The translations under genes and the position numbers were made by a program. Shown here in pieces: positions 8,180 through 58,825 of a DNA stretch of 64,000 bases (its first letter is position 1; the number at the start of each line of letters is the position of its first letter). The notes beneath the pieces were generated by a model. The model was not told where the DNA came from. It did not search any database and saw nothing but the letters and a program-made list of their open reading frames with translations. Source of the stretch: Helianthus annuus (taxonomy: Eukaryota > Streptophyta > Magnoliopsida > Asterales > Asteraceae); the NCBI RefSeq assembly GCF_002127325.2, contig NC_035433.2:11088645-11152644 (forward strand). The letters are read 5' to 3'.

Positions 8180-10171
8180 TGTGACGTACCAGGATCCAAG
8201 CCACCAATCACATTGAACTAATAACAAATATTTAAATAAAACATTCAATTCTTTTCATTACATAATTCCCAGTCATAAGTTAAAACCAAAGTAAACGTTC
8301 AGCGGAAGCATAATGTAAATTGTTAATCAGTTGTTTCAAAACAAGTGTTCATAACCAACAAAACAAGTATCCAAGAGTCTCGACCCATGACCACTCCAGC
8401 ACTCCCAGATAGCAAGTCCGTTACTAAGAATCTAACGACCTGCAAGCATGCAGACAAGTGTGTTAGACGACACTGGTGAGTTCAAAGTTTGTTAACACGT
8501 TTTAATTACCAGATATAAGTACAAAACAATTCAATAATTGATGTTGTTAATAACTCGATTACCGCAGATGGCTCCAGATTATTTGCCCTATTCCCCAAAG
8601 CCTCTATCAAAGCAATGCTCAAGATTGGGGTCATTAGTTCACTCCCGACCTCCTCGTTGCGGTGTAAGGGTGCCAAACCTAAATAGCGCTATTAACTAAT
8701 ACCCCGTTGCCTTCCCGGCAACAATCAGTAGAAGAGACTTAAGTGATAGATATGAGTGTATTAACCAACATCCCAATAACCCGACATTCCTCCCCGGAAC
8801 GTTTACCAGATGTCCCTCCCTGGAACGCATGCTTGGAAAAAGAGCAGTAAACTCACATTGGTTTGCTCGGTATGATTAGTTACTTGTTCACAATTAATGA
8901 GTCAAATCCTATGGCATTCATGTATACGTAATCAGTTTATATTCACATGGTTCATGTATAAGTCGTAATCGTTTTGTGCATTCAAAGCAGCGATCACCAA
9001 GTCACACATTGCAGCTATTCAAGGTCATGCAAATTCACATCTCATATGCAAGTTTCATATTAGCACATAACAGTTAATTGTGCCATTCATATAAAAATCA
9101 ATTTATATTTCCACAATCATAACTAACATCCTTAACAAGCATTAACATAGTCATTCAATAACATGCTCATTCTAGACCACAGTCTGTTGATCAGGGCGAC
9201 GAAACATCAAGATATTTCGTCGATATGGAGGTGGCGAAATACCAAGGTATTTCCTCGACATGCTGTGTGACGAAACACTAAGGTGTTTCATCGATAGGGT
9301 ATTTCGTGAGGAGGGGACTTTCGTCGTCAAACACAACAGTTAATCATGCACACACAGAAACCCTAATTGCCACTGTTCCGTTCATGCCGAAACTATTAAT
9401 TGCAATCATCACTTAATCATCCCAATCATCAATTAATCATGAACACACACACTATTCAAAATCCAGTTTCTCATCCCACATTTAGATCACAACAACAGTT
9501 GATTTGTATCCTTAGATCATCAACAGTTTAAGCATACTAGTTCTAGATCTACCATACTATGCTTACGAATGCAATTCTAGCGAAGATCTTATGAACACAT
9601 TAACACATAACCATACAATTAGCACAAGAAGAGAATCCCGACGAGTAACAATTGGGACATACTAACCGGTTACGAGATGAAACTAGCGAGAGCTTCGAGA
9701 GGGATGATTGTCGTCAGGTGCAAGGGAGAGAATAATAGTGTTTTAGGGTTTCCATGAGTTCGTTATATATACATACGACGTGAACAGGGCCGGCCACAAC
9801 TGGGCTTTGAGGATAACTGGGCCGTAGGTGACGAAAGACCCCAAACCCGTCTTTCGTCGAGTCCTTTGTGACGAAAGACTCATCTTTCGTCGAGTCCTTT
9901 GTGACGAAAGACTCATCTTTCGTCGAGTCCTTTGTGACGAAAGACTCATCTTTCGTCGACCCATATTTCATCAAGTAGAGTTATGATGAAAGGGTTTGCC
10001 AATATGTCAGTAAAGGTTCTTATTGAATGCTAACATCTCAAAACCACCATGAACTTATATTTATAACATTTTTAAAATAACATACATGACACAATTTGCA
10101 ACGAGATATAAAATAGGATTGTAAAACAGGTGACGCGAAAAGGAAAAGTCTTGAAATCTTGGGTTGTCACA
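8180..10171 (-). repeat. Element C 3' LTR (1992 bp, outer end truncated)
   Basis: Homologous to 19415-20660. It lacks the outer ~45 bases of that copy (19415-19460) but keeps about 726 bases (8449-9174) missing there. It ends GGTTGTCACA at 10171, next to a polypurine tract. Four inverted repeats lie at 9830-9957, upstream (minus strand) of a TATA-like TATATATAAC at about 9763-9772. Minus-strand frames reading KDESFVT repeatedly are products of this array and not genes. Confidence 0.85.
9830..9957 (-). promoter_or_regulatory. Array of four hairpins upstream of the TATA box in element C LTR
   Basis: The first hairpin has 10-base arms, GACGAAAGAC (9830) and GTCTTTCGTC (9849). Three more have 9-base arms, GACGAAAGA and TCTTTCGTC around a CTCA loop, at 9870-9891, 9903-9924 and 9936-9957, a 33-base period. 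The other LTR (from 20387) has only one complete and one decayed unit. Looser GACGAAA...TTTCGTC pairs lie at 9197-9300. Position suggests a U3 promoter element; function is inferred. Confidence 0.7.
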
Positions 10172-10186
10172 TCATCCCCAACTTGA
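10172..10186 (-). other. Element C polypurine tract
   Basis: On the minus strand TCAAGTTGGGGATGA immediately precedes the LTR start TGTGACAACCC, the expected plus-strand DNA priming site. Confidence 0.7.
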
Positions 10187-10268
10187 AAGAAATTTCGTCC
10201 TGAAATTCACTAGTTGAATCAGATTTAGACTTGTCAGCTGGGAATAAATGAGGGTACTTGAGCTTCAT

Positions 10269-10838
10269 CTAATCCTCGCGTTCCCATGTGAACTCCGGTC
10301 CACGTCTTGAGTTCCAACGAACTCTCACAATCGGAATCCTGCTATGCTTGCGGACTTTGACTTCCCGATCCATAATCTCTATTGGTTCTTCGACGAACTG
10401 CAACTTGTCGTCAATCTTCAATTCTTGAAACGGTATCACAAGTGTTTCATCGGACAAACACTTCTTTAGCTGAGAGACATAGAAGACATCATGGACGTTA
10501 CCTAACTCAGCAGGTAACTCTAACTTGTAGGCCACTTTACCAACTCGCTCCAGAATTTTGAATGGCCCTACATAACGAGGGTTAAGCTTGCCGCGTTTTC
10601 CAAAACGAACCACATCCTTCCAGGGTGAGACCCTCAACATAACACGATCATTAACTGCGAACTCCAAAGGTTTTCTACGCTTATCGGCGTAGCTTTTCTG
10701 ACGATCACGCGCGGCCGCCATACGATTCCTGATCTGAACAATTTTCTCTGAGGTTTCAAGTATAAGTTTCGGGCCTGTAATCTGGCTATCACCCATCTCA
10801 GCCCAACAGAGAGGGTAACGACATTTCCATCCGTACAA
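10269..10838 (-). pseudogene. Element C: integrase C-terminal half with chromodomain-like tail
   Basis: A 189-codon frame. The first third covers the end of the integrase region (MYGWKCRYPLCW; usual YGRKCR-P). The GPFKILERVGKVAYKLELP segment is the C-terminal DNA-binding fold. The last ~45 residues (EPIEIMDREVKVRKHSRIP, then VRVRWN and TWERED) resemble the chromodomain that directs chromovirus integration to heterochromatin. A TAG codon ends the frame at WERED; the sense continues beyond as MKLKYPHL, so about 30 residues are lost. It is the last pol domain before the polypurine tract. Confidence 0.8.
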
Positions 10839-11232
10839 TGCTTCGAATGGAGCTGCCTGGATACTGGTATGTTAGCTGTTGTTATAAGAAAACTCTATCA
10901 AAGCAAGTGTTTCTCCCAATCCTTGCCCAAATCAATCACACAAGCCCGCAGCATGTCTTCAAGTGTCTGGATGGTTCATTCACTTTGACCATCCATCTGC
11001 AGGTGATAAACAGTAATCATGTCGAGACGCGAGCCGAATGATTTGTGCATCGACTGCCACAAATCTGAGATAAAACGTGGGTCACGGTCAGAAATAATAG
11101 AGGTCGGCACCCCGTGGCTAGAAACCACCTCCTTAAGATAAACAACAGCTAATTGCGAGAACTTATCCGTTTCCTTGATAGCTAGAAAGTGCGCTGAGTT
11201 CGTGAGACGATCAACGATCACCTAAATGGTAT
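10839..11232 (-). pseudogene. Element C: integrase catalytic core
   Basis: The best frame (10976-11221) reads MIVDRLTNSAHFLAIKE, with the first catalytic D, then ISDRDPRFISDLWQ (second D) and LQMDGQSE, which supplies the catalytic E. So the DDE triad is present. Just after GQSE a stop replaces the usual R, and the next 45 codons (LEDMLRACVIDLGKDWE) lie across stops and frame changes before the C-terminal half. It continues the integrase begun at 11335-11586. Confidence 0.8.
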
Positions 11233-57321: not shown

Positions 57322-58143
57322 TTTATAAAAATTAATATATTAAGTGAAAATTGATTTAAAATTTGAAAAATTAATTTTCACAAACTATGTTAAAATGTTG
57401 AAGAGAAACAAACAGCCGAAAGATCAAGGATCGAAAGACCTGAAAAACAAAACTGTTAATCTTAAACAAATAAGGATCGAAAGATAAACACTTGTTCGAA
57501 AGATAGACATTTGTTCGAAGGATCAACAGTGTTCGAAAGATCACTGTTGAATTTCGAACAATGACTTCGAAAGATTCTCCAAGACGAAGGATCCTTATCT
57601 TTCGAAATGTAACAGTAGCTCGAACAATATATCCTTCGAAAAGATTCCTTGGCTCGAAAGATAACTCACTGACTTCGAAAGATGTTCGAAGGATGGGTAT
57701 CTGTCGAACCTCCTTGATCGAAAGATGATCTTTCGACTTCGAAGGATATCTATCGATGAGATCTGACACAACTGACACAAAGTTGACAGGTTGGTGAAAA
57801 GGTGATGTGGTTGGTAGACAACTTTCGGCAGAAGGGATGTTCTGACCTCAACTTTTCACCAACTCAGATTTGACTTTTGAAATATTGCCCAAAAAGGAAG
57901 CTTCTTATCTAGAAACCGGTACCGGAGTTAGCAGGAATCTTGGCCGGAAATAACCAAACCTTTTAGAACAAGATTTTTAAGTTACCCAAACCTTCCCTTA
58001 ACACACCCGGTTAGTTTAGAACACGTTTTTAAGTCTAAAAAAGCAAGAAACACACTACAAACGGGTGCTAAATCAAGTGAGTTTTTGTCCAAATACTCCA
58101 AAGTCTTGTACAAAACCCGGTTTTTAACAAGGAAAAGAGCCAC
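57322..58143 (-). other. Copia I 5' leader with TCGAAAGAT motif cluster
   Basis: 820 bases between primer site and gag. 57410-57760 is dense in TCGAAAGAT/TCGAAGGAT and reverse complements, the same motif as in the LTRs and the pol-downstream spacer. Two short minus-strand frames through the cluster are not genes. Confidence 0.7.
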
Positions 58144-58156
58144 GGCTCTGATACCA
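58144..58156 (-). other. Copia I primer binding site
   Basis: TGGTATCAGAGCC on the minus strand, two bases from the LTR end; initiator tRNA-Met type. Confidence 0.9.
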
Positions 58157-58158
58157 CT

Positions 58159-58825
58159 TGTAGGTCCCTCGGAGGTTGAGGTTAAACCTTATCCTTGTTA
58201 TGTTTAACACTCTAGCAAGTGCGAAATCCAAGCTAGAATGCAAACCGATAGTTTAGATGAAAGCACAAGTTACAAAGAGAAAGAGTAGACACGCAATATA
58301 TCAAAGTTTTCTCTTGTATTTCAGTGGACACGGTTACAGCCCTTGACCAAACTGAAATGCTCTCTACAAGACTTGGTTCACTCACATGCACTATCCAAAG
58401 ACTCTAAGTGTCTAAATGTGAACTGAACCATACATGGGATATATATACCAATAACAGATTGCATGTGTCGAAGGATCAGAATGTCTGTCGAAGGATCATC
58501 TATCGACCAAAATCTCTCCGAAGGATCCATACATACCTCGAAGGATGATGTATCCTTCGAGGTCCATCTGTATCCATCGAAGGTTATCCTTCGAGGTCAT
58601 CGAAGGATGTAAACTATCCTTCGATGACATCCTTCGAACACTAACAAACTTATACACTAAGTGTTGACTGTTTGGCCAAGTCAAACCAGGAGGATGGTTG
58701 ACTTGGTCAAACTTACAGTCAAACACATATACAAACCAAACACAAGACGTAAACAAGACTAACAAAAGACATCGTTTTATAACATTACAAAATACAGACA
58801 AAGTACAGACACAAGTGCACCAACA
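58159..58825 (-). repeat. Copia I 5' LTR
   Basis: 667 bases, same length as the 3' LTR but with clear differences, concentrated at 58384-58500 and 58640-58760. The TATA run is at about 58439-58450 and the motif cluster upstream at 58465-58640. Confidence 0.9.

Follow-up and report, generated by a model that had tools for sequence, protein, structure and literature searches.

Palindrome and half-site arrays ahead of TATA boxes in sunflower LTR retrotransposons, with a recurrence at an internal TATA box ahead of an accessory reading frame

In a 64,000-nucleotide stretch of the sunflower (Helianthus annuus) genome (NC_035433.2, positions 11,088,645 to 11,152,644; hereafter the window), arrays of palindromes and short half-sites lie ahead of the TATA boxes of several families of long terminal repeat (LTR) retrotransposons. 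The arrays are enriched upstream of TATA, stand at a fixed distance from it in two families and follow a regular spacing pattern in Copia I, a Sirevirus-like element. The same layout occurs at an internal TATA box ahead of an accessory open reading frame (ORF), in Copia I (where the frame is ORF3) and in one Athila-like Gypsy element. Family-specific arrays of protein-binding half-sites in the elements' own promoters, combined with a feedback loop through ORF3, would account for these features together, an explanation to which we give slightly better than even chances. The initial annotation, made from this stretch, had described such arrays just upstream of TATA in unrelated families; they lie at the places it named and exceed shuffled expectation, but they are not limited to the U3 region (from the LTR start to TATA), and some of the families are related to one another.

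Self-comparison yielded the LTR pairs of the window (families designated by letters) and 24 repeat pairs in a 200 kb sample, G000:C1:60000001-60200000 (elements designated by E-numbers, in sample coordinates); 16 combined candidates were inspected. Inverted repeats with a score of at least 13 number 78 in the sample, against a mean of 6.0 in five shuffles, an approximately 13-fold excess. For inverted 7-mer pairs in U3, ten of the 15 families tested (C, G, H, I, E5, E6, E7, E9, E10 and E11) lie above 300 shuffles at p <=0.027. No such excess is seen in F (3 pairs vs 2.9), B (6 vs 4.3; no TATA was found, and a point 500 bp in took its place), E2 (p 0.08), E8 (p 0.056) or E13, whose orientation is unsure. 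In the sequence up to 400 bp past TATA, the same level is reached in 3 of the 15 families (C, E2 and E13; H has only 33 bp there). Repeats with a score of at least 11, counted in 13 LTR families, number 15 in 39 scorable 100-bp bins upstream of TATA and 1 in 33 downstream. At least one upstream repeat is present in C, G, H, I, E2, E5, E8 and E10 (8 of 13), and lies within 100 bp of TATA in C, G, E5, E8 and E10 (5 of 13). The looser 7-mer measure additionally flags E6, E7, E9 and E11, and neither F nor B.

The distances given in the initial annotation are nearly exact for C, whose four hairpins lie 58 bp from TATATATAAC (about 60 had been stated), for the single palindrome of F, 17 bp ahead of TATAAATA (18 stated), and for the two palindromes of G, 14 bp ahead of the same box (15 stated). 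Both LTRs of Copia I carry the two-orientation TCGAAGGAT clusters reported ahead of the TATA run. In H, a cluster of related sites does precede CTATAAATA, but the gap is about 175 bp, which is not just upstream. The motif differs between most families, as had been claimed; however, G and H have one palindrome in common, and the families cannot be counted as independent: F and G share an LTR stretch that is 82% identical, a TTACG half-site is common to G, H and E5, and I, E6, E8 and E11 share a Sirevirus-type junction, which is degraded in E7.

Spacing to the TATA box is rigid in two families. The palindrome CTTACGGACCGTAAG has 10,227 + 10,295 occurrences genome-wide (3.01 Gb, 334 contigs), and its reversed control has none; CTTACGGWCCGTAAG followed by TATAAATA within 5-35 bp is found 1,399 + 1,310 times, again with a control of 0. 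Since palindrome-TATA pairs are far fewer, only part of the palindromes are paired with TATA, the distant H cluster being an example. Among 100 listed places, all on C1 and many of them LTR pairs, the spacer between CTTACGGWCCGTAAG and TATAAATA is 16 bp long in 49 and 17 bp long in 51 and occurs in 51 sequence variants, and the centre base of the palindrome is T in all 100. The 5' LTR of E5 carries another palindrome, TTACGCGGGCCGCGTAA, 17 bp from TATATAA. In the Athila-like family, all six LTRs of three elements have 26 bp between CAGCGGACACGG and TATAAAT. Rigid spacing with a free spacer sequence suggests DNA-bound factors positioned relative to the core promoter.

Copia I is 15.9 kb long, lies on the minus strand and encodes gag-like ORFs, an RVT_2 pol and the extra ORF3. 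Its motif TCGAA[AG]GAT forms four arrays, in U3, in the leader, ahead of the internal CTATATAAAGG and between this box and the ORF3 start, and hardly occurs elsewhere; neither R-U5 nor ORF3 contains such an array. Of 31 neighbouring pairs of sites on the same strand, 18 have a distance of 18-21 bp, the spacers being unrelated; the distance is 9-11 bp for 7 of the 15 convergent pairs and 5 bp for 4 of the 12 divergent pairs. The junction of LTR and primer-binding site (PBS) has the Sirevirus form CA/A[T/G]TGG-TATCAGAGC (here CTACA/AGTGGTATCAGAGC; AGTGG-TATCAGAGC), and, as in Sireviruses, palindromic boxes precede the LTR TATA and the env-like gene. The terminal polypurine tract (PPT) octamer, AGGGGGAG, starts 10 bp upstream of the 3' LTR and is followed by TT/TG, where Sireviruses have AT/TG. 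Of four sense copies of this tract, one is in gag, two lie directly past pol and one is terminal; identical PPTs clustered near the 3' LTR, a Sirevirus trait, are absent from Copia I, and we therefore call it Sirevirus-like. The Sirevirus CGG-CCG box core is likewise absent, the core being TCGAAGGAT/TCGAAAGAT. The class of pol was scored by Pfam RVT_2 alone.

We compared the region upstream of ORF3 with six further copies of Copia I, of which one (L032), being rearranged, was dropped. The TATA-like box is kept in all six retained rows (five copies and the window), as is the 5' splice-like site of the candidate leader intron, whose 3' AG is present in five of six alignable rows. Identity declines from 0.965 in the site-free upstream zone through 0.929 in the first array, 0.898 at TATA and 0.829 in the leader exon to 0.736 in mid-intron, and rises to 0.877 in the second array and 0.921 up to the ATG. 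The second array therefore stands out from its intron, while the first is not above its upstream flank. Conservation is higher in sites than in spacers (0.951 vs 0.912; 0.957 vs 0.792) despite the CpG they contain, in a comparison biased by a site definition that favours conserved columns.

A similar order is found in the Athila-like elements: in E14, palindrome CCGTGTCCAGCGGACACGG is followed after 27 bp by TATAAATG, then by CTAG/GTAAGT, another palindrome, TTTTTCGTAG/A and, last, the beginning of a short ORF. At the matching place, E10 has a TATA of poorer quality and an ORF3 with a frameshift, the intact piece of which is an ATHILA-family protein (ATHILA ORF-1 family PF03078 above cut-off, PF20167 weak); this protein and the Gypsy domain order of E10, reverse transcriptase-RNaseH-integrase, are both as in the Athila lineage. 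E3 and E14 are tied to E10 only via common LTR ends, palindromes and TATA flank, and the short ORF of E14 gave no match to the ATHILA ORF-1 family. Both E10 and E14 carry further arrays in the leader and 3' linker. The term 'U3 modules' used by the initial annotation is too narrow, as the same arrays also occupy an internal promoter-like site and leaders. A 31-bp AT-rich palindrome, CATTAATTGTAATT-3 bases-AATTACAATTAATG, occurs beside CpG-rich palindromes in the U3 arrays of E10 and E14 (sample positions 153336, 169457, 191783 and 197366). In E6 and E8, the U3 half-site (CGCTTGAA; GATCGCTT) also fills the PBS-gag leader, and no ORF3 was found in either.

The predicted model of the ORF3 N-terminus shows a tentative resemblance to VANC21 (9lnj), an element-encoded factor of the Arabidopsis VANDAL transposons. 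No match to PF09331 (DUF1985) was found with 13 aligned ORF3 rows at E up to 10, and hhalign remained at decoy level. Dense short-motif arrays in non-coding DNA, a VANC-type trait, are present in the ORF3-bearing element. VANC21 motifs fill the introns and upstream regions of VANDAL21; in both systems the short arrays are family-specific, lie upstream of genes and in introns and turn over rapidly, and an element-encoded reader, established for VANC, is proposed for ORF3 (PMC5735166, PMC10398659). The systems differ in that VANDALs are Mutator-like (MULE) DNA transposons, in that VANC proteins carry DUF1985/DUF287, of which DUF1985 was not detected in ORF3, and in that VANC21 motifs have one orientation (the available text of PMC5735166 does not use the word 'palindrome'). 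VANC binding and demethylation were demonstrated experimentally, whereas ORF3 is known here from sequence and model. In many relatives of ORF3 the open frame extends over about 1,176 amino acids; in the window it has 893. Of the 150 scored DUF1985 matches, 11 lie in a cluster at G000:C4:13.0-14.75 Mb, whereas most of the others are not clustered in this way.

Palindromes and same-strand runs would seat dimeric or multimeric factors near TATA, at a set distance in two families. The arrays are quite probably binding arrays at the DNA level: fixed spacing, the polarity of the centre base and the 18-21 bp same-strand distances in Copia I favour the sites for dimeric factors that the initial annotation had offered as one of two options. 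We infer protein binding to the arrays, promoter function of the internal TATA and the role of the factor. As the leading mechanism, ORF3 would be expressed from the internal promoter, bind the arrays at all three places (LTR, leader and internal promoter) and keep these regions open or unmethylated, as VANC does for VANDAL transposons; families lacking ORF3 would depend on a host factor or on a relative's protein in trans. ORF3 is a possible reader of the arrays, though we lean towards doubting it. Rather unlikely is the broader proposal that a self-encoded anti-silencing circuit, made up of a VANC-fold 'env-like' protein, an internal promoter and family-specific palindrome arrays, operates in two superfamilies, Sirevirus-like Copia and Athila-like Gypsy, with motif and protein co-diverging and no cross-activation between families.

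The internal TATA is fairly likely to be a promoter, a reading slightly weakened by the conservation data. Arrays are also present in E6, E8 and E11, where no ORF3 was seen, which agrees with an alternative that we consider tenable but short of even odds: each family may have gained enhancer motifs for different host dimeric factors, such as stress-related ones, and ORF3 may be unrelated, perhaps a degenerate envelope. U3 enhancers of the Tnt1 type are known. Sirevirus boxes matched mainly stress-related entries of a motif database (Bousios 2010, PMC2829016). Host factors do not readily explain why the motif differs between most families while its position is constant, and the link of the Copia I motif to the ORF3 promoter-like site and leader, as well as the 9lnj similarity of the predicted ORF3 model, also speaks against them.

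U3 is part of the 3' end of the genomic RNA, where folded palindromes might act in 3' processing or packaging or as small-RNA precursors targeted by the host. In C and in the Athila-like palindromes, a change in one inner arm is matched in the other, and small RNAs concentrate on the palindromes of maize Sireviruses (Bousios 2016 as described in PMC5311732, PMC10760457), although such targeting can be a side effect. Wobble pairs, however, are not in excess (20 G-T vs 26 A-C single mismatches), facing neighbours make up only 15 of 58 pairs in Copia I, and fixed TATA spacing is hard to explain on the RNA level, so that hairpin-forming transcripts, part of the other option of the initial annotation, now appear improbable. 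A mutational origin would require no selection, with fold-back template switching and slippage during reverse transcription building or perfecting the inverted repeats. These processes would give perfect arms and tandem hairpins, such as the 33-bp repeats of C, and arms that change in step need no function. They leave unexplained the placement ahead of TATA, the fixed spacing of 16-17 bp and 26 bp, and the absence of arrays from R-U5 and ORF3 of Copia I; the constraint on position and spacing strongly disfavours such a by-product, which we regard as very improbable.

Foamy viruses have a circuit of similar layout, in which an internal promoter drives the accessory regulator Tas and its sites are shared with the LTR; these are animal retroviruses with an unrelated protein, and the likeness is one of circuit layout alone. 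Palindrome arrays were already known in Sireviruses, contrary to the initial annotation, which knew of no such shared design: palindromic repeated-motif (RM) boxes lie shortly ahead of TATA in their Copia LTRs, with more before the envelope-like gene, and were called Sirevirus-specific, with a CGG-CCG core in all but Tnd-1 (Bousios 2010, PMC2829016). The sunflower arrays add Gypsy lineages, other cores, rigid TATA spacing, an explicit internal TATA with an intron-like leader, leader arrays and the VANC-like ORF3 model. Cis-regulatory arrays, some of them palindromic, have been named in several transposable element families (PMC5311732, PMC10760457). The sunflower Athila additional ORF (PMC11728184) is, like ORF3, an accessory 3' ORF with PF20167/PF03078 and a nuclear signal; gene23 of maize Grande has its own promoter but is antisense (PMC7264820, PMC11963269). 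In sunflower SIRE elements CG, but not CHG, methylation drops strongly between the LTRs, and in one Athila clade methylation drops in the LTRs in all contexts (PMC12844716). These drops would be compatible with an anti-silencing circuit without proving it. That work already raises the idea that factors encoded by LTR elements may influence the methylation of the elements themselves, and both it and PMC11728184 cite VANDAL as precedent; in the available text of the two papers 'palindrom' does not occur and no link to promoter arrays was seen, nor does 'VANC' occur in that of PMC11728184.

If ORF3 does read the arrays, the 'envelope-like' genes of plant retrotransposons would acquire a role, and LTR elements would join the VANDAL DNA transposons as carriers of anti-silencing systems. 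Should it not, the rigid distance between palindrome and TATA in a large family is still a natural experiment for the study of plant core promoters. The internal TATA is relevant to the Sirevirus internal promoter, which was suspected but not conclusively identified (Bousios 2010, PMC2829016).

Table 1. Features of the window, and elements of the 200 kb sample (E-numbers, sample coordinates).
Feature	Position	Strand	Remark
Copia I 5' LTR (Sirevirus-like)	58158..58828	-	pairs with 42888-43558, 93% identical; CTACA/AGTGGTATCAGAGC junction
U3 array, 12 sites TCGAA[AG]GAT (<=1 mismatch)	58468..58637	-	sites on both strands, 30.6 per kb
5' LTR TATA TATATATA	58440..58447	-	
Leader array, 18 sites	57416..57756	-	from PBS to gag interval
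Copia I pol (RVT_2, rve)	49862..53308	-	6 scattered sites, 1.7 per kb
Internal array ahead of ORF3, 15 sites	48088..48397	-	
Internal TATA box CTATATAAAGG	48055..48062	-	TATA-like box in 6 of 7 aligned rows
Candidate leader intron (GGTAGGAT ... TGATGTACAG)	47119..47931	-	predicted from sequence alone
Array within candidate intron, 17 sites	47226..47491	-	directly ahead of ORF3 ATG
ORF3, accessory ('env-like') protein	44444..47116	-	PF20167 below cut-off
Copia I 3' LTR	42888..43558	-	same array 43199-43370 (12 sites); TATA run 43170-43179
Second Copia I copy, LTR	61421..62073	-	same array; element runs past window edge
C 3' LTR, four GACGAAAGA..TCTTTCGTC hairpins	9830..9957	-	ahead of TATATATAAC at 9762-9771
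C second array, three hairpins, e.g. GAAACACCTTAGTGTTTC	9197..9289	-	arms differing in step; ~480-575 bp past TATA
C 5' LTR, long-loop hairpin	20387..20415	-	common to both LTRs; TATA 20319-20326
F, single CCGCGACACGCGG	34986..34998	+	ahead of TATAAATA at 35016; U3 not above chance
G, two CTTACGG-CCGTAAG palindromes	36679..36721	+	ahead of TATAAATA at 36736
H, cluster of TTACGGACCG-type sites	42450..42669	+	TATA at 42845
E2	53141-78073		
E3	69277-76406		within E2
E5	97253-105694		
E6	108301-118885		
E7	119746-120165		LTR
E8	120788-128020		
E9	133784-146517		
E10	152056-169891		
E11	159894-165783		
E13	184683-186471		LTR
E14	191402-198137		

The window holds several further features. Within Gypsy element C, a long interspersed nuclear element (LINE)-type ORF with RVT_1 and zf-RVT domains occupies 14680-17493 on the minus strand, and about 727 bp of the C 3' LTR (8449-9175) are absent from the 5' LTR, reflecting an insertion or an old deletion. 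Downstream of the G TATA, 37-bp tandem units lie at 37890-37988 and 39477-39612, and the G LTR region contains a direct duplication of about 1.1 kb (37867-38971 with 39492-40595). A run of 13 N at 60079-60091 is probably an assembly gap.

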